From: Chthoniobacterales bacterium
GTDB lineage: Bacteria > Verrucomicrobiota > Verrucomicrobiia > Chthoniobacterales > UBA10450
Assembly (NCBI GenBank): GCA_025934755.1
Contig: JAICWQ010000003.1
Span: forward strand, 1 to 51,798
DNA length: 51,798 nucleotides
Direction: 5' to 3'
The position numbers and the translations under genes are program-made. Each line of letters starts with the position of its first letter. Within the stretch, counting starts at the first letter, position 1. Below the pieces are notes generated by a model. That model saw only the letters and a list, made by a program, of their open reading frames with translations, had not been told where the DNA came from and made no database searches. Shown one piece after another: positions 15,491-51,761 of the stretch.

Positions 15491-15518
15491 TCGTCACTCG
15501 TCACCTGTCACTCGTCAC
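15491..15518. repeat. Four tandem heptads TCGTCAC
   Basis: Four copies (the third is CTGTCAC) lie between the DUF1844 gene and the M16 protease, and the last covers the protease stop codon. The same tandem is found inside pdxA (29214-29241) and, degenerate and inverted, at 35284-35312. Confidence 0.85.
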
Positions 15519-24327: not shown

Positions 24328-27300
24328 GTGGAGAAAGAATTGGCCGGTCAGTTACTTGAGCGCGTAGCGCAGTCCGACCCGATTGCGCGCAAGCTCGATC
24401 AGATCGCGAAACGTCTCGGGCCGGTAAAATTTTCTCACGTAATCGAGCCGGCGCGGCCATTCCTCGCCGCCGTTATCGCCGGCCACGTCGACAAAACTCT
24501 TTGGATCCTTTGTCGGGGAGTGCGAGCTCAGGATTCGGTTTACGAAACTTTGCTCAACTGGCTTCCGGGTTCGCAGTTTCTGCCCGAAGCCGAATTCGCC
24601 GCCGTCGAAAACATCCTCCCCGACCCGGAAATTGCGGCCGAACGCCTGGCCCTTCTGGCCACGATCGACAGCGAAGCGGGTCCACATGTGATCGTCACCA
24701 CACGCGCGAGTCTCGATCAATCTGCGCCGAAACGCGGCGCGGTGCCGGCTGCGACTTTAAAAATCAAACGCGGCCCGGGGACAACGATGGACCAGCTTCT
24801 CGAAAAGCTGGCGACGTCCGGCTACGAACGCGTCGCCCAGGTCACAACCCGAGGCCAATTCGCAGTTCGCGGCGGGATCGTCGATCTTTATTCCTGGCAG
24901 GCGCCGCTCCCGGCCCGCATCGAGTTTTTTGGTGATAACATCGAATCGCTTCGCGAATTCGACGTCGATACCCAGACGTCGGTGCGTGATCTGCGCAAGA
25001 TCGACATTCTTCTTGGCGCCGCCGAAGACAAAAGTGGGATCGTTCGCGATTACGTAGGCAAAGGCGATCTGATCGTAGATCTGGACCCGGAGAAAAACGC
25101 GACGGCACAAATTCAAATCAGCGAGAGCTGGATTGAAGAAGGGGCCGAGAATTTCGACGGCGCCTTTCAGGATTGCAACATCGGTGAATTCGCGGTTGGC
25201 GATTTTATGCTGGCCGAGGCCAAGCGCGATCAGTTCATCAAGCGCCTCGCCGAATGGCGAAAGGAACAGGCCCGCGTTGTCGTCTACTTTCAAACTGAGG
25301 GCGAGATCGAGCGCTTCCGGGAGTTGATCAACGCCGATGCTCTCCAGGACGTGGATCTCGTTCTCGGCACACTCGCCCGCGGTTTTTGTTTTCCCGCGGC
25401 AAACCTGGTTGTTTTGTCCGCGGCCGAATTGTTCGGACGTTTCGCTCCCCATGCGCGACGCCGGCTTTACCATGCGGAGCGTCACCGCGCTCAAATCGAT
25501 TTCAGTGAACTGAACGAAGGCGACTTGGTGGTGCATCTTGAGCACGGGGTCGGCCGTTTTCTCGGGCTCACGCGTATTCCAATCGCGACAACCGCCGGTC
25601 CGGCTGAGGCCCCGTCGACCGCGAAGCTCGCAGCCGGCACTGCTGCCACTACCGTTCGCGAACAAGAAGTCCTTGCCCTTGAATTCGCCGACGAAGCGAA
25701 GCTCTACGTGCCGCTGGAACAGGCATATCTCGTTTCGCGTTACGTCGGCGTTGGTAAACGATCTCCGGGCCTGAGTTCGCTGGCGGATTCAAAATGGTCT
25801 CGAGCCAAGCACACCGCCGCGGCATCCATTTTCGACTACGCCGGCAAAATGCTGACGGTTCAAGCTGAGCGCGAAACCGTCCCCGGCTACGCGTTTGGTC
25901 CAGACACCAAATGGCAGCGCGAATTCGAACATTCGTTTCCGTTCCGCGAAACACCCGACCAAATGCGGGCGATCATTGACTCAAAGATCGACATGGAACG
26001 GCCGCGCCCGATGGACCGTTTGATCTGCGGTGACGTTGGCTTCGGCAAGACCGAGGTCGCAATTCGCGCGGCCTTCAAAGCAGTGATGGAGGGGAAACAG
26101 GTTGCGGTCCTCGCCCCGACTACGGTGCTCGCCCAACAACACTTCGAAGTGTTCCGCCAGCGAATGCTCGATTATCCGGTGCGAATCGAAATGCTCAGCC
26201 GGTTTCGAACCCAGGGTGAGCAAAAGAAAATCCTCGAACTCCTTCGTCAAGGAGGGGTCGACATTGTCATTGGCACCCATCGGCTGATTTCCGGCGACGT
26301 TATCTTCAAAGAACTCGGCCTCGTCGTAATCGATGAAGAGCAACGGTTCGGGGTTTTGCACAAGGAGAAATTCAAGGAGCTGTTCAAACTCGTCGACGTG
26401 CTCACTCTTTCGGCCACACCGATTCCGCGCACGCTCTACCTCTCCCTCGTTGGCGTAAAAGACATGTCGACGATCGAAACTCCTCCCCTCAACCGGTTGC
26501 CCGTCGAAACCATCGTTTGCGGTTACGACGAACGGATCATTCGCGACGCGATCAACCGCGAACTGGAACGGCAGGGACAGGTTTATTTTTTGCACAACCG
26601 CGTCCAATCAATCGAGCGCGTCCGTGAAAAAATAATCGATCTCATCCCCGGCGCGCGCGTGGAAATCGGTCACGGCCAGATGGGCGCCGATGAGCTCGAA
26701 GAAATCATGGCCCGCTTCGTTGCCGGAAAAATCGATATCCTCGTTTGCACGACGATTATCGAGAGCGGCCTGGACATTCCGAACGCGAACACAATCATCA
26801 TCGATCGCGCCGATCGTTTCGGGCTGGCCGACCTTTACCAATTGCGCGGCCGGGTCGGGCGGGCGGAGCACAAAGCCTACGCCTATCTGTTGTTGCCGCG
26901 TGAAATGATGACGGTTGGCGCCGCGCGGAAACGGATCAACGCCATCAAACAATACAGTTCGCTGGGCGCCGGTTTTCGCATCGCCATGCGCGACCTCGAG
27001 ATTCGCGGAGCGGGCAGCATTCTCGGGACCGCCCAAAGCGGACACATCATGGCGATCGGGTTCGATCTGTATTGCCAATTGCTCAAGCAGGCAGTCGCCC
27101 AATTGAAAGGCCGAAAATTCCGGCGCCGGCTCGACGTCGATCTTCGCATTGATTTCGCGGCGACCAACGAAGCCGAATTCGCCCAGCTCGGCCCCGAGCA
27201 ACGCGTTCCCGCATTCGTCCCGGCGAGCTACATCAGTGATACCGCCTTGCGCATCAAAGCCTATCGCGAAGTCGCCGAGATCAGCAACCGCGATCAATTC

Positions 27301-27549
27301 GACCGTGTGCGAAAGGAATGGCGCGACCGATTCGGAAAATTCCCGCCGGCCGTCGAGAATTTATTTCTTCTGGCGGAGATCAAACTGGCTGCGGCCAAGG
27401 CCGGAATCTCCCGGGTGGAAACCAAAGAGCGCAAGTTGATGCTGACCCGGCGGGGTGAATTTGTACTTGTCGAAGGCAAATTCCCTCGTTTAGTTGCAAG
27501 GCCCCCTCACCTCAGCGAAGTCTTGGAACTAACAAGGAAATTTACATGA
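24328..27549 (+). CDS. mfd: Transcription-repair coupling factor
   Basis: A 1073-residue protein that pushes stalled RNA polymerase off DNA lesions and recruits UvrA. The order is: UvrB-like N-terminal module (about 1-260), linker domain, CarD-like RNA polymerase interaction domain (about 395-470, GDLVVHLEHGVGRFLG), then the RecG-like translocase with Walker A GDVGFGKTE, IDEEQRFG, TATPIPRTL-type motif and QLRGRVGR. It ends with a TRCF domain. It starts at GTG. A run of about 25 Ala/Thr/Pro residues (about 418-443) interrupts the interaction domain after GLTRIPIAT. It overlaps the next gene by ATGA. Confidence 0.97.
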   Translation: MEKELAGQLLERVAQSDPIARKLDQIAKRLGPVKFSHVIEPARPFLAAVIAGHVDKTLWILCRGVRAQDSVYETLLNWLPGSQFLPEAEFAAVENILPDPEIAAERLALLATIDSEAGPHVIVTTRASLDQSAPKRGAVPAATLKIKRGPGTTMDQLLEKLATSGYERVAQVTTRGQFAVRGGIVDLYSWQAPLPARIEFFGDNIESLREFDVDTQTSVRDLRKIDILLGAAEDKSGIVRDYVGKGDLIVDLDPEKNATAQIQISESWIEEGAENFDGAFQDCNIGEFAVGDFMLAEAKRDQFIKRLAEWRKEQARVVVYFQTEGEIERFRELINADALQDVDLVLGTLARGFCFPAANLVVLSAAELFGRFAPHARRRLYHAERHRAQIDFSELNEGDLVVHLEHGVGRFLGLTRIPIATTAGPAEAPSTAKLAAGTAATTVREQEVLALEFADEAKLYVPLEQAYLVSRYVGVGKRSPGLSSLADSKWSRAKHTAAASIFDYAGKMLTVQAERETVPGYAFGPDTKWQREFEHSFPFRETPDQMRAIIDSKIDMERPRPMDRLICGDVGFGKTEVAIRAAFKAVMEGKQVAVLAPTTVLAQQHFEVFRQRMLDYPVRIEMLSRFRTQGEQKKILELLRQGGVDIVIGTHRLISGDVIFKELGLVVIDEEQRFGVLHKEKFKELFKLVDVLTLSATPIPRTLYLSLVGVKDMSTIETPPLNRLPVETIVCGYDERIIRDAINRELERQGQVYFLHNRVQSIERVREKIIDLIPGARVEIGHGQMGADELEEIMARFVAGKIDILVCTTIIESGLDIPNANTIIIDRADRFGLADLYQLRGRVGRAEHKAYAYLLLPREMMTVGAARKRINAIKQYSSLGAGFRIAMRDLEIRGAGSILGTAQSGHIMAIGFDLYCQLLKQAVAQLKGRKFRRRLDVDLRIDFAATNEAEFAQLGPEQRVPAFVPASYISDTALRIKAYREVAEISNRDQFDRVRKEWRDRFGKFPPAVENLFLLAEIKLAAAKAGISRVETKERKLMLTRRGEFVLVEGKFPRLVARPPHLSEVLELTRKFT

Positions 27550-28519: not shown

Positions 28520-28616
28520 CGCTTGGCTTTCTCTTAATCTTGCTCTTGCGCCTGCTCATGCTCGATTGAGCGCAGCAACCACGAGTAAGAGTATGAGCAA
28601 GGGCACGAGTAAAAGT
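28520..28616. repeat. CTCTTGCTC / GAGTAAGAG repeat over the pdxA start
   Basis: Short units CTTGCTCTTG on the left and GAGTAAGAG, GAGCAAG, GAGTAAAAG on the right form a loose inverted array. They run into the first pdxA codons (Ser/Lys-rich MSKGTSKS). A similar pair, CTTGCTCTTGCTC and GAGTAAGAGAAAGAG, lies at 30232-30281 before the ABC-2 permease. Confidence 0.6.
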
Positions 28617-29540
28617 GTTCGCATCGGAATCACCCCCGGCGATTGCGCCGGCATCGGACCGGAAATTGTCGACGCTGCGTTAAAATCGGGACGCGTCCCA
28701 CAGTCGGCAGATTACGTTGTCATTGGTCGGCAACCAAATTGCAGGCCAGGCCACCCGACGATTGAAACTGCACGCGCAGCTGCGGCCGCGCTCGAAGAGG
28801 CAGTAACTCGCGCGCGACGCGGCGAGGTGTCGGCCGTCGTTACCGGACCGATTCATAAAGCTCGCATGTACGACGCCGGCTTCAGGTTTCCGGGCCAAAC
28901 CGAATTCTTTGCTGAGCGCTGCGGCGTAAAAAATTTTGCCATGTGTTTGACCGGCAAAAAGCTCACCATCGCGCTGGTAACGACTCACATTCCGCTGGCC
29001 AAAGTTTCCGGTGCCCTCAAACCGAGCCAGATCGTTCGTGTCGGACTTTTGCTCGCGGACTTCTTGCAACGCCGAAGCACGACTCAAAACTTGAATGCAA
29101 AATGCATTCAAGTTCGCATCGCGGTTTGTGGGTTAAATCCGCATGCTGGCGAATCCGGAAAAATCGGCCGCGAAGAAATCGAGATCATCAAACCTGCTCT
29201 AGACGAATTAAACTTGTCACTCGTCACTCGTCACTCGTCACTTAGCGCCAGCGGTCCTCATTCGCCCGACACGGTCTTTCATCGCGCGATTGAAGGCGAG
29301 TTCGACGCCGTCCTTTGCATGTATCACGACCAGGGATTGATTCCGCTCAAGCTCGTCGCCTTTGATAGCGGGGTGAACACCACGCTTGGTCTGCCTTTTC
29401 CGCGGACCAGTCCGGATCACGGCACCGCGTTCGAGATCGCCGGCAAAGCAATCGCGCGTCCTGACAGCATGATCGCAGCGATCAATCTGGCGTTTGAGCT
29501 GGCCACAGCGCAAAAGACCCCCGCTAAAAAACGCGAATGA
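28593..29540 (+). CDS. pdxA: 4-hydroxythreonine-4-phosphate dehydrogenase
   Basis: Oxidises 4-phosphohydroxy-L-threonine in pyridoxal 5'-phosphate synthesis, as a zinc-dependent dimer. The 315 residues carry the hallmarks GITPGDCAGIGPE, THIPLAKV, GLNPHAGE and CMYHDQGL, whose His residues bind metal, then GVNTTLGLPFPRTSPDHGTAFEIAG. The ATG was preferred to an in-frame TTG nine codons earlier; the region between is repeat DNA. Two stretches look inserted: a 27-bp perfect hairpin before VRIAVCGLNPH and heptads encoding LSLVTRHSSL between LDEL and the SPDT motif. Both leave the frame and motifs intact. It follows the SurA-like gene. Confidence 0.96.
   Translation: MSKGTSKSVRIGITPGDCAGIGPEIVDAALKSGRVPQSADYVVIGRQPNCRPGHPTIETARAAAAALEEAVTRARRGEVSAVVTGPIHKARMYDAGFRFPGQTEFFAERCGVKNFAMCLTGKKLTIALVTTHIPLAKVSGALKPSQIVRVGLLLADFLQRRSTTQNLNAKCIQVRIAVCGLNPHAGESGKIGREEIEIIKPALDELNLSLVTRHSSLSASGPHSPDTVFHRAIEGEFDAVLCMYHDQGLIPLKLVAFDSGVNTTLGLPFPRTSPDHGTAFEIAGKAIARPDSMIAAINLAFELATAQKTPAKKRE
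29088..29114 (+). repeat. In-frame 12-bp palindrome inside pdxA
   Basis: Perfect arms AACTTGAATGCA (29088-29099) and TGCATTCAAGTT (29103-29114) with loop AAA, translated in frame (NLNAKCIQV). It lies before the beta strand leading to the conserved GLNPHAGE. Confidence 0.85.
29214..29241 (+). repeat. In-frame TCGTCAC heptads inside pdxA
   Basis: Four heptads (the first TTGTCAC, then three of TCGTCAC) translate as LSLVTRHSSL. The same tandem is intergenic at 15491-15518. Confidence 0.85.
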
Positions 29541-35278: not shown

Positions 35279-35283
35279 AAAAA

Positions 35284-35312
35284 GTGATGAGGGACGAGGG
35301 ACGAGTGACGAG
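35284..35312. repeat. Degenerate inverted heptad repeat between macB genes
   Basis: GTGATGAGGGACGAGG and ACGAGTGACGAG, the reverse complement of the TCGTCAC heptads at 15491-15518, separate the two MacB-type genes. Confidence 0.7.
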
Positions 35313-35318
35313 CCGTAG

Positions 35319-40088: not shown

Positions 40089-41240
40089 TCAAACGAAAAC
40101 TCGTTTGACCCTCTGGCCAATTCGCGTCGTGATATCCCAGGTGATCGTCCCCGCTTTATCCGACAGCTCGACGCACGGAATTTCCGCGTCGCCCTGCCGT
40201 CCCATCAACACGACTTCGTCGCCGATGGCCGCGTCACCAATGTGCGACACATCAATGACCATCAAATCCATCGTCACCCGGCCAAGCAATGGGCAGCGCT
40301 GACCACGGACCAGCATTTCCGCGCCGGCATTGGAAAGATGTCGCGGGTAACCGTCGGCATAACCCGCGGTCAAGGTCGCAACCCGCATCGGCTTCGGCGT
40401 GATAAATGTGCGCCCATAACTGATCGACGCTCCCTTCGGAACGTCGCGAATCAAACCGATGCGCGTTTTCCAGGTCATCGCGGGCTTCAGCAGGTTTTGG
40501 AATTCCGGAAGCGGCGAAATTCCGTAGAGGACGATGCCCGCCCGGACGATTTCGTATGGTCGCTCGTTGAAAGCCAGACTTCCCGCGCTTTGCAATACGT
40601 GCACTTTGTATTTGCCCGGAACCTCCGCGCGCAACCGGTCGACAATCTCTCCGAAACGCGCAAGCTGGTCACGAGTGTATTTTTCATCTTCGTTCGAAAC
40701 CGGCATGTGGGTCGAAACACTATGAATGTCTATATTCGATAACGCAGAGATTCGTCTGAAGACATCCACCGCTTCGCTTTCCACCACGCCCATTCGGCCG
40801 TTGCCGGTGTCGATCTTGAAATTAACCGACACTTTACTTCCAGTTCCGCCTGCGCTCCCTTCCCCTCCCTCAGGGAGAGAGTTAACGTGAGGGTGATGTC
40901 CTGTTCGACTAAATGCTTCGGCTTCTTCAAAACTTGAGATCGTTGGAATAATTCCGCTCGCGACAACGCTCGCTCGTTCATCCGGAAGGGTAGGGCTAAG
41001 AGTGATGATCGGATGGTTCACTTTTTCACGAAGGGCGAGGGCTTCCTCCAAATTCGCGACCCCGAAGAGTTGCACCTCTTTCGCCAGGGCCTCAGCGACA
41101 CCAAGCATTCCGTGGCCGTAGGCATTCGCTTTGATGACCGCGAGCATTTCGGCTTTGCCGATCCGGTCGCGAACAATCTTCGCGTTGTGATGAAATGCGC
41201 TTCGATCGATTTCAACCCAGCAACGATGGTTCTGTGTCAT
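40089..41240 (-). CDS. alr: Alanine racemase with an in-frame repeat insertion
   Basis: Converts L-alanine to D-alanine for peptidoglycan, using PLP. The 383 residues carry PLP lysine Lys37 in VIKANAYGHG and catalytic Tyr275 in ASISYGRTF, with the barrel and C-terminal domains otherwise complete. Residues 115-132 (HHPHVNSLPEGGEG and a Ser/Ala/Gly run) interrupt the barrel between FEEAEAFSRTG and SVNFKIDTGNGRMG and are encoded by repeat-type DNA. The start overlaps the tsaB stop (ATGA). It is the last gene of the thiL-tsaE-tsaB-alr run, so expression is tied to t6A synthesis genes. Confidence 0.96.
   Translation of the reverse strand: MTQNHRCWVEIDRSAFHHNAKIVRDRIGKAEMLAVIKANAYGHGMLGVAEALAKEVQLFGVANLEEALALREKVNHPIITLSPTLPDERASVVASGIIPTISSFEEAEAFSRTGHHPHVNSLPEGGEGSAGGTGSKVSVNFKIDTGNGRMGVVESEAVDVFRRISALSNIDIHSVSTHMPVSNEDEKYTRDQLARFGEIVDRLRAEVPGKYKVHVLQSAGSLAFNERPYEIVRAGIVLYGISPLPEFQNLLKPAMTWKTRIGLIRDVPKGASISYGRTFITPKPMRVATLTAGYADGYPRHLSNAGAEMLVRGQRCPLLGRVTMDLMVIDVSHIGDAAIGDEVVLMGRQGDAEIPCVELSDKAGTITWDITTRIGQRVKRVFV
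40845..40898 (-). repeat. In-frame repeat inside alr
   Basis: On the minus strand the DNA reads as a CACCCTCACGTTAACTCTC-type unit with a short hairpin CTCCCT/AGGGAG (40865-40877). It adds about 18 residues. In other alanine racemases the flanking segments are joined by only a short loop. Confidence 0.75.
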
Positions 41241-42252: not shown

Positions 42253-43141
42253 GCTTCAAAGGATGAGGGATGAAGGATGAAGGATGAATCAGAGAGCCGA
42301 TAGGTGTGAGCGAAACCTTCGGAAATTTCTTCCGCCAGGCTTTTTGCAAACGCGGTCGATCGCGCGGAGACACGGCAAAGAGGAGCTCGTAATCCTCGCC
42401 CTCGGATATTGCATTATCGATGCTCGCGCCGGGCGCAAGCGGCAAGGCGTCCTTGTCGATTTTGAATCCGAGCTTGCTTGCCTTCGCCAGCCGGGGGAGG
42501 TCGGCTCCGAGGCCGTCGCTCAGGTCCATCATCGCATGGACTCGAACGTTTTCGGTGAGCCAGCGCGATTCGTGAATCCGCGGGACAAATTTGAGATGTT
42601 TACCGCGTAACGATCCACCCAGGTGGCCAGTGACAAACAGATCGTCGCCTTCTTTTCCGCCGGCGCGCGAGACCGATCGTTTCCTCTCAACAAATCCGGA
42701 CACGCTGACCGAAATCACGATTGGACCGCGGATGGCGCTGGTTTCTCCTCCGACGATCGCAACACCGAAAAGCGCAGCCGCGCGTTTCAATCCGTTATAA
42801 AGTTTTTTTACCCACAACGCCGATTTGGTGGCGGGAACAATCAGGGTAATGAGCGCGAATTGCGGAACGGCCGAGACAGCGGCAAAATCGCTCAACGGAC
42901 GCATCATTGCTTTCCAACCCACCAGCGACGCATCGGTCGAAGCTCGGAAATGAATGTTCTCGACGACACAATCCGTTTTCAGGACGAGTAGGTTCCGGGC
43001 GCCGCGGAATTCCAAAACCGCACAATCGTCGCCAATCAGGCTACGCGAATTGGGCAAGCCACGCAGGATTGACGCGATCAGCGTGTCTTCACCGACCTCG
43101 CTCAGGCGAGTCCGTCCCCTGGCGGACCGGCTGGGTTTCAT
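42230..43141 (-). CDS. thiL: Thiamine-monophosphate kinase with a repeat-encoded C-terminal loop
   Basis: Phosphorylates thiamine monophosphate to thiamine pyrophosphate. The 303 residues match the family. Features are GDDCAVLEF (metal/ATP site), FRASTDASLVGWKAMMRPLSDFAA and VGGETSAIRGP with MMDLSDGLGADLPRLAKAS. The start is the ATG overlapping the CPBP gene stop; the upstream extension is not ThiL-like. Residues 285-294 (IHPSSFIPHP) come from four GGATGAA heptads, and the usual end GYxHF survives right after as GYVHF. It overlaps tsaE by 23 bases. Confidence 0.95.
   Translation of the reverse strand: MKPSRSARGRTRLSEVGEDTLIASILRGLPNSRSLIGDDCAVLEFRGARNLLVLKTDCVVENIHFRASTDASLVGWKAMMRPLSDFAAVSAVPQFALITLIVPATKSALWVKKLYNGLKRAAALFGVAIVGGETSAIRGPIVISVSVSGFVERKRSVSRAGGKEGDDLFVTGHLGGSLRGKHLKFVPRIHESRWLTENVRVHAMMDLSDGLGADLPRLAKASKLGFKIDKDALPLAPGASIDNAISEGEDYELLFAVSPRDRPRLQKAWRKKFPKVSLTPIGSLIHPSSFIPHPLKRGYVHFQ
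42261..42288 (-). repeat. In-frame GGATGAA heptads inside thiL
   Basis: Four tandem heptads on the plus strand (GGATGAG then three GGATGAA) lie within the last 60 bases of thiL, and all translate in frame. Confidence 0.85.
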
Positions 43142-47943: not shown

Positions 47944-49212
47944 ATGATCTATCGAATGGATCGCTTTATTTGGCTAAATCTTCCCCTGGTCGTCGCCCCA
48001 ATTTTTCTTTCGAGCTGCACGATGAAGCTCGGCAAACAACCGCGCCAGGAAGTTACTTCACTCTATTCCGCCCGGTCACCGGAATTTCAACAAGCGGCCG
48101 GTTCGCTGCTCGGCCCGGACTTCGTCGGCGGCAACAGCATCAGCACCCTCGTCAATGGCGATGAAATTTTTCCGGCAATGTTGAGCGCGATCCGTTCCGC
48201 CAAACGCTCAATTAATCTGGAGACATATATTTTCTGGGACGGCGATATTGCCAAACAATTTACTGCCGCCTTGAGTGAGCGGGCACGCGCCGGTGTTTCG
48301 GTAAATATGATTCTCGACGCCCAGGGAACGCAAAAAATGGGCATCTCGAACAAGAAGCAATTACAGGATGCGGGCGTTAAGATCGTCAAATATCACAGTG
48401 TTCTCTGGCCGGATCCGCGTCGGTACAACAACCGCAGTCATCGAAAATTGCTGATCGTTGACGGCACAGTCGCTTTCATTGGGGGCGCAGGCATTGCCGA
48501 TCTTTGGGAAGGTAACGCCGATTCACCAAAACATTGGCGGGACAATCATTACAAAGTGACCGGTCCGGTGGTGGCGCAGCTCCAGGCGAGTTTCGTGAGC
48601 AACTGGATCAAAACCCGCGGGGACGTGTTGCACGGCGATAAGTATTTTCCACCACTCCAAGATAGTGGCTCGCTTCAGGCCCAGGCGATCCGGAGTGGCG
48701 CGCACTATGAAAATCTCGACCTAATGTATTTGCTTGCGATCGCTTCCGCCAAAAAATCGCTCCGGATTGAAAATGCCTATTTCCTCCCTGACGACCTCGT
48801 TCGCAAGGAACTGGTTGAAGCCGCGAAACGCGGCGCCCGGGTCGAGATCATTGTTCCCGGAAAAAAGATCGATCAAAAGCTGGTTCGCTCCGCATCGCGG
48901 CGACATTGGCCGGAATTACTCAACGCCGGAATAAAGATTTACGAATACGAACCGACGATGCTTCACGTGAAGCTTATGATCGTCGACGACAAATTCGTGT
49001 CGGTCGGGTCAGGAAACTTCGACAATCGCTCGATTCGGTTAAATGACGAAGCAAACCTCGATGTATTGGATTCGGATTTTGCCGCGCAGCAAGCTCACTT
49101 GTTCGATCTCGATAAACGGCGATCGCGCGAAATCACTGCGAATGAAGTCGACGGATTTCATTTGGGTAATCCGTTCGAGCACGCGGCCGCATTGCTCTCG
49201 CCTCAGCTCTAA
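47944..49212 (+). CDS. Phospholipase D-family lipoprotein, cardiolipin synthase-like
   Basis: A 422-residue enzyme with two HKD motifs: HRKLLIVD (His166, Lys168, Asp173) and HVKLMIVD (His341, Lys343, Asp348). It probably joins two phosphatidylglycerols to cardiolipin. A lipobox (FLSSC, Cys25) marks it as a lipoprotein, unlike the multi-helix ClsA, and close to the ClsB/ClsC style. Conserved LETYIFWDGDIAKQF and FVSVGSGNFDNRSIRLNDEANL are present. Its stop overlaps the stop of the convergent beta-lactamase gene by 4 bases. Confidence 0.93.
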   Translation: MIYRMDRFIWLNLPLVVAPIFLSSCTMKLGKQPRQEVTSLYSARSPEFQQAAGSLLGPDFVGGNSISTLVNGDEIFPAMLSAIRSAKRSINLETYIFWDGDIAKQFTAALSERARAGVSVNMILDAQGTQKMGISNKKQLQDAGVKIVKYHSVLWPDPRRYNNRSHRKLLIVDGTVAFIGGAGIADLWEGNADSPKHWRDNHYKVTGPVVAQLQASFVSNWIKTRGDVLHGDKYFPPLQDSGSLQAQAIRSGAHYENLDLMYLLAIASAKKSLRIENAYFLPDDLVRKELVEAAKRGARVEIIVPGKKIDQKLVRSASRRHWPELLNAGIKIYEYEPTMLHVKLMIVDDKFVSVGSGNFDNRSIRLNDEANLDVLDSDFAAQQAHLFDLDKRRSREITANEVDGFHLGNPFEHAAALLSPQL

Positions 49213-50087
49213 TTTCTCGCCGGTGGGCGCAAAACGTGGACAACTTCCCGCGTCACATTCGCGATCATCTCGGATCGCTTTTCGTCCGAAAGAGATGGCG
49301 CCATGGCATAGATCGCGATGAATATTCGCGCACCGTTTGGCGGATAAACAACCGCGACATCGTTCACTTCGCCTTGTCCGCTCCGGCCGGTCTTATCGCC
49401 AACGCGCCAATCTTTGGGGACACCGGCTCGGACCAATATTGCGCCGGTTTCATTTTTCAAGAGCCAGTTTTGCAACAGGTCGCGAGATTTTTCTGACAAC
49501 AAATCAGTCGTCAGCAGCCGCATCAGATCATTGCACATTGCCGATGGCGACGTTGTGTCACGGGTATCCCCCGGTTTGACGTCATTCAATTCCGGCTCCA
49601 TACGATCCAGCCGCGTCGCCTTATCTCCGAGCGATCGCGCAAATTTTGTCAGTCCGGCCGGGCCGCCGATCGCCTGCAGCAAAAGATTTCCCGCGGTGTT
49701 GTCGCTCTGCTCAATTGCGGCCTCGCATAAAGCGCCCAGCTTCATTCCGCCTTCGGCCACATGCTGTTTGGCAACCGGAGCGTACTCGAGGATATCGGCC
49801 GGGGTATAACGAATGAAGCGGTCCAGCTTTTCATCGCCGCGATCCACCCGCTGCAACACCGCCGCTGCGGCCAGCAGCTTGAACGTGCTGCACATCGGAA
49901 AACTCTCGCTTCCTCGATTCTCAATGTGCTCTCCGCTTTTCGAATCGATCGCAACGACACCGATTCGAGCGCCGGTTTCAGTCTCAATCTTGGCGATGCC
50001 TTTGGGTGGCCAGTCATCAATTGCTCGCGCAATTTGCACCGACGTCACCGCCACGAATACAGCAATGACGAAGTGACGGGAAACCAT
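49209..50087 (-). CDS. Class A beta-lactamase
   Basis: A 292-residue exported serine hydrolase that opens beta-lactams. Signal peptide about 1-22. The motifs are all present: CSTFK (nucleophile Ser67 with Lys70), SDN (128-130), ExxLN with general base Glu164 (EPELN), and KTG (232-234). Cys66 precedes the nucleophile as in carbapenemases, but no Cys follows KTG (KTGRSGQGE), so the disulfide typical of the KPC group cannot form. The spectrum is not readable from sequence. The 28 extra upstream codons overlap the thioesterase gene and were dropped. It lies 4 bases downstream of the thioesterase gene. Confidence 0.95.
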   Translation of the reverse strand: MVSRHFVIAVFVAVTSVQIARAIDDWPPKGIAKIETETGARIGVVAIDSKSGEHIENRGSESFPMCSTFKLLAAAAVLQRVDRGDEKLDRFIRYTPADILEYAPVAKQHVAEGGMKLGALCEAAIEQSDNTAGNLLLQAIGGPAGLTKFARSLGDKATRLDRMEPELNDVKPGDTRDTTSPSAMCNDLMRLLTTDLLSEKSRDLLQNWLLKNETGAILVRAGVPKDWRVGDKTGRSGQGEVNDVAVVYPPNGARIFIAIYAMAPSLSDEKRSEMIANVTREVVHVLRPPARN

Positions 50088-50091
50088 CGGT

Positions 50092-50568
50092 CTACCAGCG
50101 ATGAAAAGCTGGATGTCCTTCTTTGACCGCAACGAAAACGCCGCGACAAGTTGCGCAAACTTTTCCGCCACCGCTCAATGTTCCTTCGATTGTCGCGCGG
50201 TCGGTCCGAGCCGGACTGGCCTCTTCGACAACGTGCGCGGACAGTAAAATCGAGCCGTTGGTCGGTGTCGGTCGAAGCAGCTTGATTGAGTATTCCGCTG
50301 TGACTGTGCAGGGCGGACTATTGGCCCCGGCTTTCTTCATCAAGTGATAAGCCGCAGTCCAGTTGCAGTGACAATCGAGCAGCGTGCCAATGATTCCGCC
50401 GTTCAGAACACCGGGAAACGCCTCGTACTTAGGCTCCGGTTTCCACTCCGCGACGACCTCGCCGTTTTTTGGAAAGCTCCGAATGCGCAAACCTTGCGGA
50501 TTGGCCGGGCCACAACCGAAGCAGGCATTTTCGGGCGCGTATTGTTCCTGGAGCGGTTTTTCTTTCAT
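50092..50568 (-). CDS. Hotdog-fold thioesterase-like protein
   Basis: A 158-residue protein of the PaaI/4HBT type. CFGCGPANPQGLRI is a common N-terminal motif of the group. The hotdog core follows: FPGVLNGGIIGTLLDCHCNWTAAYHL (a Gly-rich helix with an Asp near 71-75), TAEYSIKLLRPTPTNGSILLSAHVVEE. It likely hydrolyses an acyl-CoA. The substrate is unknown. The start MKEKPLQ was used; the longer frame runs through a repeat and into the citrate synthase gene. It lies between gltA and the beta-lactamase, all on the minus strand. Confidence 0.88.
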   Translation of the reverse strand: MKEKPLQEQYAPENACFGCGPANPQGLRIRSFPKNGEVVAEWKPEPKYEAFPGVLNGGIIGTLLDCHCNWTAAYHLMKKAGANSPPCTVTAEYSIKLLRPTPTNGSILLSAHVVEEASPARTDRATIEGTLSGGGKVCATCRGVFVAVKEGHPAFHRW

Positions 50569-50623
50569 GGTGGATCGAGCTCTCCGAGCTCGATTAGATC
50601 GCCCGCGGAGCGGTCGATCCACC
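50569..50623. repeat. GGTGGATCGA inverted repeat with inner palindrome
   Basis: Arms GGTGGATCGA (50569-50578) and TCGATCCACC (50614-50623) enclose a nested palindrome, ATCGAGCTC/GAGCTCGAT (50574-50594). It lies exactly between the citrate synthase stop and the thioesterase start. Confidence 0.8.
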
Positions 50624-50624
50624 T

Positions 50625-51761
50625 TTATTTGCGTTCCGCAGGACCGGGATACTTGCGAAGCTTTGGTCCAACGTAGAGCGACCGTGGCCGAATCAAGCGG
50701 TTGTGATCGTGCTGTTCGACGACGTGCGCGCACCAACCGGCAACGCGGGACGCGGCAAACAACGGCGTGTTCAGTTCGGGCTTGAATCCAAGCATCCAAA
50801 ACACCGGCGCAGCGTAAAGGTCGACATTCGCGCAAAGCCCTTTCTCGCGATCCATCACTTCCTCGAGTTTCTCGCAGATCGCGACCCAGTTTTCTTTGCC
50901 AGTGCGTTTGCCCAGGTCGCGCGCGATCTCCCGCATCACCGGCACGCGGGAATCACCTTTTTTGTAAACGCGATGGCCAAACCCCATGATCTTCGCTTTC
51001 GCGGCGAGTTGCTTCTTCAACCATTCTTCGGCGCGGTCCGGGGTTTTGATGTCCTCGAGCATCTTCATCGACTCCTCGTTAGCTCCGCCGTGCAACGGCC
51101 CTTTCAGAGTGCCGCAGGCCGAAGTCACAGCTGCATAAATGTCGGATAGCGTCGAAGCCGTCACTCGGGCGGCAAATGTCGAGGCATTGAATTCATGATC
51201 GGCGTAAAGATTGAAAATCGTGTCCATCATCCGCGTTTTCCAATCCTCCGGAACTTTCCCTTCCAGTTTATAAAAGAAGTTGGCGGCCTGGCTGAGTTCT
51301 GGTTTTTCGGGCAACGGTTTTTCGCCCTGGGCGGTTCGAAACCCGTCCGTGATCAACGTCATGACTTTCGCGATCAATCGGATCGACTTGCGAACATTGG
51401 CGTCATGCGAGTGGTCGTTCAGGTCTTTGTCGAACGGCCCGAGCATGGATACTCCGGTCCGCAACACATCCATCGGGTGGGCGTTTTTTGGGATGAGTTG
51501 CATCATCTCCTCGACTTGCTTTGGCAAACTGCGCTGGGAAGCGATCTGCTCCTTGAATTCGTTAAGCTGTTTGGAGTTCGGCAGTTCGCCGTTCAAAAGA
51601 AGGTAGGCGACTTCCTCAAAGGTCGCTTTGTCACCCATTTCGTGAATGTCGTAGCCGCGGTACATCAAGCCCGCGTTCGGGTCGACCCAGCAGATCTGGG
51701 TCTCGCCCGCGACCACTCCGGCCAATCCGGGACTGTAGGCTGGTTTTGTTTCTGTAGTCAT
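50625..51761 (-). CDS. gltA: Citrate synthase
   Basis: Condenses oxaloacetate and acetyl-CoA at the entry of the TCA cycle. The 378 residues match the shorter type common outside enterobacteria. Catalytic residues lie in GPLHGGANEE (His), MGFGHRVYKKGDSR (His, signature) and NVDLYAAP (Asp). The start METK-like MTTETKPAYSPGLAGVVAGET is family typical. Upstream codons end the window, so promoter data are incomplete. It is separated from the thioesterase gene by a 55-bp inverted repeat. Confidence 0.97.
   Translation of the reverse strand: MTTETKPAYSPGLAGVVAGETQICWVDPNAGLMYRGYDIHEMGDKATFEEVAYLLLNGELPNSKQLNEFKEQIASQRSLPKQVEEMMQLIPKNAHPMDVLRTGVSMLGPFDKDLNDHSHDANVRKSIRLIAKVMTLITDGFRTAQGEKPLPEKPELSQAANFFYKLEGKVPEDWKTRMMDTIFNLYADHEFNASTFAARVTASTLSDIYAAVTSACGTLKGPLHGGANEESMKMLEDIKTPDRAEEWLKKQLAAKAKIMGFGHRVYKKGDSRVPVMREIARDLGKRTGKENWVAICEKLEEVMDREKGLCANVDLYAAPVFWMLGFKPELNTPLFAASRVAGWCAHVVEQHDHNRLIRPRSLYVGPKLRKYPGPAERK

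Follow-up and report, generated by a model that had tools for sequence, protein, structure and literature searches.

Two kinds of dispersed repeat DNA, a 27-bp palindrome and a tandem heptad, have probably settled in tolerant loops of the vitamin B6 enzyme PdxA, where they are translated and may be carried as near-neutral passengers that are not needed for function; we give this reading a probability of about 0.75. Repeat DNA apparently enters housekeeping proteins repeatedly without breaking them. So far, in-gene palindromes have mostly been a topic for intracellular bacteria, Rickettsia and Wolbachia among them; the present case, with the same behavior, comes from soil Verrucomicrobia. Many relatives have been sequenced, and across dozens of species one can compare which sites are filled and which are empty, which frames are used, and how the cores turn over. 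This makes the mode of spread of these elements, and their possible influence on proteins, directly testable. Heptad unit switching at fixed gene positions poses a second problem for which the data are ready.

The window (the whole 51,798-nucleotide stretch of DNA analyzed here) is contig C37 of a 2.97 Mb draft genome in 258 contigs, designated G000. The genomes compared with it, designated likewise, are mostly draft metagenome assemblies, in which heptad copy number may be misassembled. The features in and around pdxA are:

28566-29540, + strand: pdxA, 4-hydroxythreonine-4-phosphate dehydrogenase, 324 aa, the host gene (Pfam PF04166, E=6.9e-94; PDB PdxA matches, E~1e-56)
29088-29114, no strand assigned: 27-bp palindromic element AACTTGAATGCA-AAA-TGCATTCAAGTT, translated NLNAKCIQV (genomic copies; absent from most relatives' PdxA; loop in the model)
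29212-29242, + strand: heptad tandem array of TTGTCAC, three TCGTCAC and a partial unit, translated LSLVTRHSSL (found by TRF; unit dispersed and different among species; helix-strand loop)

Translated repeats in an enzyme with intact metal-ligand motifs

The closest named records to this PdxA come from Chthoniobacterales (Verrucomicrobiota) of soil, among them Candidatus Udaeobacter. An earlier note on this DNA, made from the sequence alone, had described the metal-binding motifs as intact; TTH, NPHAGE, and YHDQG are indeed unchanged relative to E. coli PdxA structures, and the protein has its Pfam PdxA match. The perfect palindrome reported in that note was borne out: its arms are complementary at 12 of 12 positions around a 3-nt loop, and the element is open and in frame with pdxA, yielding the peptide that had been proposed. 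Shuffled windows are expected to contain 0.00 sites of this kind. The heptads, for which a correct translation had also been given, were counted as four TCGTCAC units, of which three are exact and the first, TTGTCAC, has one mismatch (TRF: period 7, 4.4 copies, 95% match).

Both segments are predicted to form helix-strand loops. In an AlphaFold2 model of PdxA (mean pLDDT 89.5, pTM 0.90; residues numbered from window base 28602), the palindrome-encoded residues 163-170 lie between a helix (141-162) and a strand (171-176), and the heptad-encoded residues 205-213 between a helix (191-205) and a strand (214-220), each as a lower-confidence stretch. The comparison of PdxA among related genomes proposed in the earlier note, carried out here on 46 relatives, found the palindrome segment missing from most of them, and its residues are not conserved where the repeat DNA is lacking. 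The linker preceding the PRIAVAGLNPHAGE segment has 28 residues in most of the aligned relatives; with an intact or decayed palindrome of the family it measures 36 in G000, 44 in G003 and G004, 35 in G013, 54 in G021, and 42 in G005. The same linker holds an unrelated repeat in G027 and a short ATCCCGC..GCGG-type palindrome in G018 and G034. On a tree built without the linkers, the presence of the palindrome in pdxA requires at least four gains or losses.

Copies and reading frames of the palindrome

Confinement of these DNA units to pdxA, a possibility that the earlier note had raised, does not apply: the palindrome with the core of this genome occurs in 22 copies genome-wide (≤3 mismatches; reversed control 0), and two-unit sites of the pdxA heptad number 17 when exact and 75 with ≤1 mismatch (controls 0). 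Pfam-confirmed genes of G000 that carry the palindrome in frame are pdxA, valS (2 copies), a threonine-synthase-like gene, hutI, and queA (2 copies); another copy lies close to the N terminus of a SprT-like ORF. Intragenic calls rest on Pfam, because a codon-usage classifier overlooked known genes, including pdxA and mutY.

A palindrome of this kind would persist in a gene if the length change is a multiple of three, the frame stays open, and a surface loop is hit. Whichever strand is read, a TGA closes one of the three frames and leaves the other two open. Host genes use each of the open frames, with unrelated peptides as the product (NL.AL..QV and KLDGLKPSS). Among the cases seen, the closed frame is read only in queA, where both copies carry a TTGA to TCGA change that removes the stop, as expected if open frames are selected for. 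The two queA copies (G000:C9, L118, 1457-1527) lie 45 bp apart and may stem from a local duplication. Elsewhere, a 104-bp tandem repeat with one palindrome per unit is broken by contig ends at the end of L166 (G000:C182) and the start of L167 (G000:C192), which looks like a single array divided by the assembly.

Heptad arrays within and between genes

The heptad is a tandem microsatellite, and further arrays in the window are:

15491-15518, + strand: mostly intergenic TCGTCAC array at the 3' end of an M16 peptidase gene
35283-35313, - strand: degenerate intergenic array between two ABC transporter genes
42258-42291, - strand: array of TTCATCC (coding-strand sequence) in the C-terminal linker of thiL, with other heptads at this place in relatives

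Two-unit sites with ≤1 mismatch occur five times in the window against 0.01 expected. The array at 15491-15518, which the earlier note had called intergenic, is real, although its third unit is degenerate (CTGTCAC) and it touches the stop codon of the peptidase gene. Most TCGTCAC arrays of this genome look intergenic, as judged by a weak coding classifier that missed known cases. Among tandem repeats, period 7 dominates both in 187 kb from this genome and in 349 kb from relatives; Markov controls gave 0.

At the pdxA loop, the TCGTCAC unit is found in G000, G033, and G041, while other genomes have AATCAGC, AATCCGC, AATCCGA, AATCAGA, TCTCACT/C, TCAACCC, or CAACCAT, and several have no heptad; on the tree, units must have changed between the TC class and the AATC class at least 11 times. 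In thiL, relatives show ATCAAAC, AATCGAA, AATCAAA, AATCCAA, AATCAGC, TCAACTC, or AGATTCG at one position. Seven is not divisible by three, and an array of at least three units therefore runs through every frame, which leaves only stop-free units to survive; none of the 17 units listed for the pdxA and thiL slots has a sense-strand stop, and 69% of random heptads would be stop-free. Unit identity may turn over fast, through slippage, recapture from other arrays, or both.

It is conceivable that the arrays arise only by local slippage of linker sequence and are unlinked to the dispersed arrays, an account we lean against. One-base neighbors are common among the units, and the pdxA and thiL units of a single genome do not match (TCGTCAC and TTCATCC in G000; AATCCGC and TCAACTC in G018), which also argues against genome-wide homogenization. 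In addition, thiL linkers that contain heptads and those that lack them are almost equally long (12-13 aa), which is not what simple insertion would produce. The earlier note had suggested that repeats enter genes in frame at loop positions; this is well supported for the palindrome but not for every heptad array, as thiL shows. Against slippage alone, the pdxA unit is also dispersed in this genome (the 17 exact sites above), 32 of the 39 genomes searched lack its 18-base form, TC- and AATC-type units switch between close relatives, and a nested GTCCGGCTCGGAC element turns up in heptad arrays of pdxA as well as of thiL. G002 has the mini-palindrome GCCAGTCCGGCTCGGAC nested in its arrays in both genes; G003, G004, G027, and G028 have it in those of pdxA.

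Several observations stand beside these. In a thioesterase-like ORF of the window (50092-50835, - strand), GCCAGTCCGGCTCGGAC is translated ASPARTD, while in the pdxA and thiL arrays of relatives it gives ASPARTN. The pdxA heptad slot of G029 (L095) contains a larger insert, PVKGRGPHGAFTPWNLPSRLAQGPEQAEGK, between AATCTGC-like heptad pieces. G053, from another family of the same order, has 86 AATCCGC/AATCCGA-type array matches, far above any other genome searched.

The palindrome family in relatives

The pdxA palindrome belongs to a family of near-perfect 27-bp elements with the ends AACTTGA...TCAAGTT and a symmetric, lineage-specific core, which may have spread by a process resembling transposition. 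An exact-ended search (AACTTGA, 6-16 bases, TCAAGTT) found 4-12 copies per genome across all six genomes of the genus, and palindromes with the same ends occur in six other genera of the family (family controls 0). The core varies by genome, being ATGCAAAATGCAT in G000, CGGCTTTAAGCCG in G016 and G008, and CTGCTTTAAGCAG in G005, with mixed cores elsewhere; despite these differences, the core arms are complementary in 32-35 of 35 copies per core pair. Six of the nine exact-ended copies in G016 lie inside Pfam-confirmed genes (pheT, aroB, valS, uracil-DNA glycosylase, a penicillin-binding protein, and folC), and further in-frame hosts among relatives include trpA, mutY, mfd, selA, a GH15 trehalase-like gene, and an amidohydrolase.

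Flank information falls to background beyond about 12 bp from the palindrome. Of the marks of a MITE, the element has inverted ends, and its flanks show no apparent target-site duplication; relatives are about 20% diverged in protein, so empty sites cannot be placed to the base. No transposase tied to the palindrome was found, and a search of viral contigs for the cores of this genome and its relatives gave no match and hence no sign of a phage carrier.

Several sites are shared. In trpA, the element occupies the identical codon in G002, G004, and G005 and is missing from G000 and G001; the mutY site is common to G001, G002, G004, G008, and G021 (three genera), and the valS site to G000, G001, and G016, with three different cores. 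Such recurrence at identical codons across genera in trpA, mutY, valS, and pdxA exceeds what blind insertion into tolerant loops would give, and shared ancestry, target preference, or replacement must be added. One alternative is that these are ancient, vertically inherited insertions at a few sites, whose arms are kept symmetric by quasi-palindrome correction (template switching) and whose cores differ through drift and correction. The same-codon positions in trpA, mutY, and valS speak for it, as does the fact that nearly all mutY copies are of one core type and that the mutY copy of G008 carries an identical change in both arms, AACTCGAC..GTCGAGTT. On the other side, the element is patchy within the genus, with the four or more changes in pdxA noted above, the valS and pdxA copies of G000 share an ATGC core where relatives have other cores at those sites, and G010 and G018 carry an unrelated palindrome, GATCGATCCCGC..GCGGGATCGATC, at the valS site. 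We regard ancient insertion as rather unlikely.

An extension, which we offer tentatively and consider doubtful, is that fixed positions in pdxA, thiL, valS, trpA, and mutY act as repeat slots, refilled with different repeats in each species by a process directed at the site or at the repeat already there, as opposed to random insertion filtered by selection. The probabilities we attach to the alternatives overlap, as several of them could hold together.

Relation to known repeat systems

The Rickettsia palindromic elements (RPEs) were reportedly described by Ogata et al. in 2000 and 2002. The passenger reading likens the palindrome to RPEs and to the Wolbachia palindromic repeats, in that dispersed palindromes sit in frame in many unrelated housekeeping genes, here Pfam-confirmed, and are translated and tolerated. 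Similar behavior is known from RPEs and from intragenic GTAG/CGTC REPs (PMC2229807, PMC3733652, PMC10969869). RPEs are described as 105-146 bp (PMC2229807), unlike the pdxA palindrome, which at 27 bp falls short of the long stem-loop of about 100-150 bp, occurs in another phylum, has a lineage-specific core whose two arms change together, and uses sites common to several genera. The likeness to Rickettsia drawn in the earlier note accordingly holds for behavior (translated repeats tolerated at loops) and not for membership.

GTAG REPs have been found inside uvrA and other genes of the verrucomicrobium Opitutus terrae (PMC3733652). Like GTAG/CGTC REPs, which are palindromes of 20-40 bp present as singles and dimers, also in genes and in the same phylum, the pdxA-type palindrome is short and occurs in many copies (27 bp, 22 copies). 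Unlike them, it lacks the tag (near its ends GTAG occurs once against 3.4 expected, and CGTC 7 times against 8.2 expected), and no link to RAYTs was found. Since the family differs in length, tag, and core behavior, we do not file it with either class: the pdxA palindrome is a variant of intragenic palindromic repeats that matches neither RPEs nor REPs.

Mobilization by RAYT (Y1) transposases, which would make the palindrome a member of the known REP superfamilies that happens to reside in genes, is in our estimation unlikely. This genome has 13 Y1_Tnp matches, the element is similar to REPs in size and frequently forms doublets, its flanks show a weak preference (near-flank information of 5.2 bits versus 2.9 in control columns), and the O. 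terrae REPs offer a precedent within genes (PMC3733652). Yet both tags stay below expectation, none of the 13 Y1 loci is bordered by the palindrome (the nearest copy is about 2.2 kb off), and the palindrome is present in G001, G004, and G013, which yield 0-1 weak Y1 matches each, G004 and G013 being just 71-78% complete. With the tag absent, the Y1 borders empty, and Y1 nearly absent from these three genomes (two of them incomplete), RAYT mobilization is not supported. As a separate observation, the 13 Y1_Tnp (IS200/RAYT-type) matches of G000 compare with 0-3 in five sister genomes, some of which are incomplete.

That the loops are functional, their residues being selected and the repeat nature of the DNA incidental, is very improbable: they are kept in a conserved enzyme, but the same DNA recurs in unrelated enzymes, in two frames and with different peptides, its dispersed copies contradict the idea, and the loops are modeled with low confidence and differ freely among relatives, both in length and in sequence.

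Heptanucleotide repeats are known from cyanobacteria, Xanthomonas, and marine Beggiatoaceae (PMC4692102, PMC4679880), where they are mainly intergenic and under-represented in coding regions (PMC4692102). The arrays described here share the tandem period of 7 and the dispersal through the genome; they differ in occupying conserved positions in pdxA and thiL with units that switch among species. No earlier description of such heptad slots was found in the open-access literature.

Other translated repeats in the window

The earlier note had named pheT, alr, and thiL as further genes with translated repeat DNA, and all three carry it, as a REP-like doublet, an inverted-repeat insert, and the heptad array, respectively. 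The first two are:

753-819 (approximate limits), + strand: GTAG-type REP-like doublet inside pheT, translated IVGQAHRLPSEKKAGGAPALQ, at the same place in pheT of G001 and G016
40838-40901 (approximate limits), - strand: 21-aa insert in alr, formed by a CTCCC..GGGAG inverted-repeat element; six relatives have a shorter insert or none

The pheT repeat looks like a member of the GTAG/CGTC REP class, and CTCCC..GGGAG elements similar to the alr insert are found elsewhere in this genome; with pdxA, these cases indicate that several unrelated repeat families are translated here. An Rfam search of the window returned a single tRNA and nothing else. A class A beta-lactamase-like gene (49209-50171, - strand) adjoins a phospholipase D-like gene. 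In mfd (24328-27549), residues ~419-444 include an insert of 19-22 residues, rich in Ala, Pro, and Thr, in which no repeat family was recognized and which is absent or shorter in several relatives; G033 and G044 have a WHRLP-type insert at mfd residue 53.
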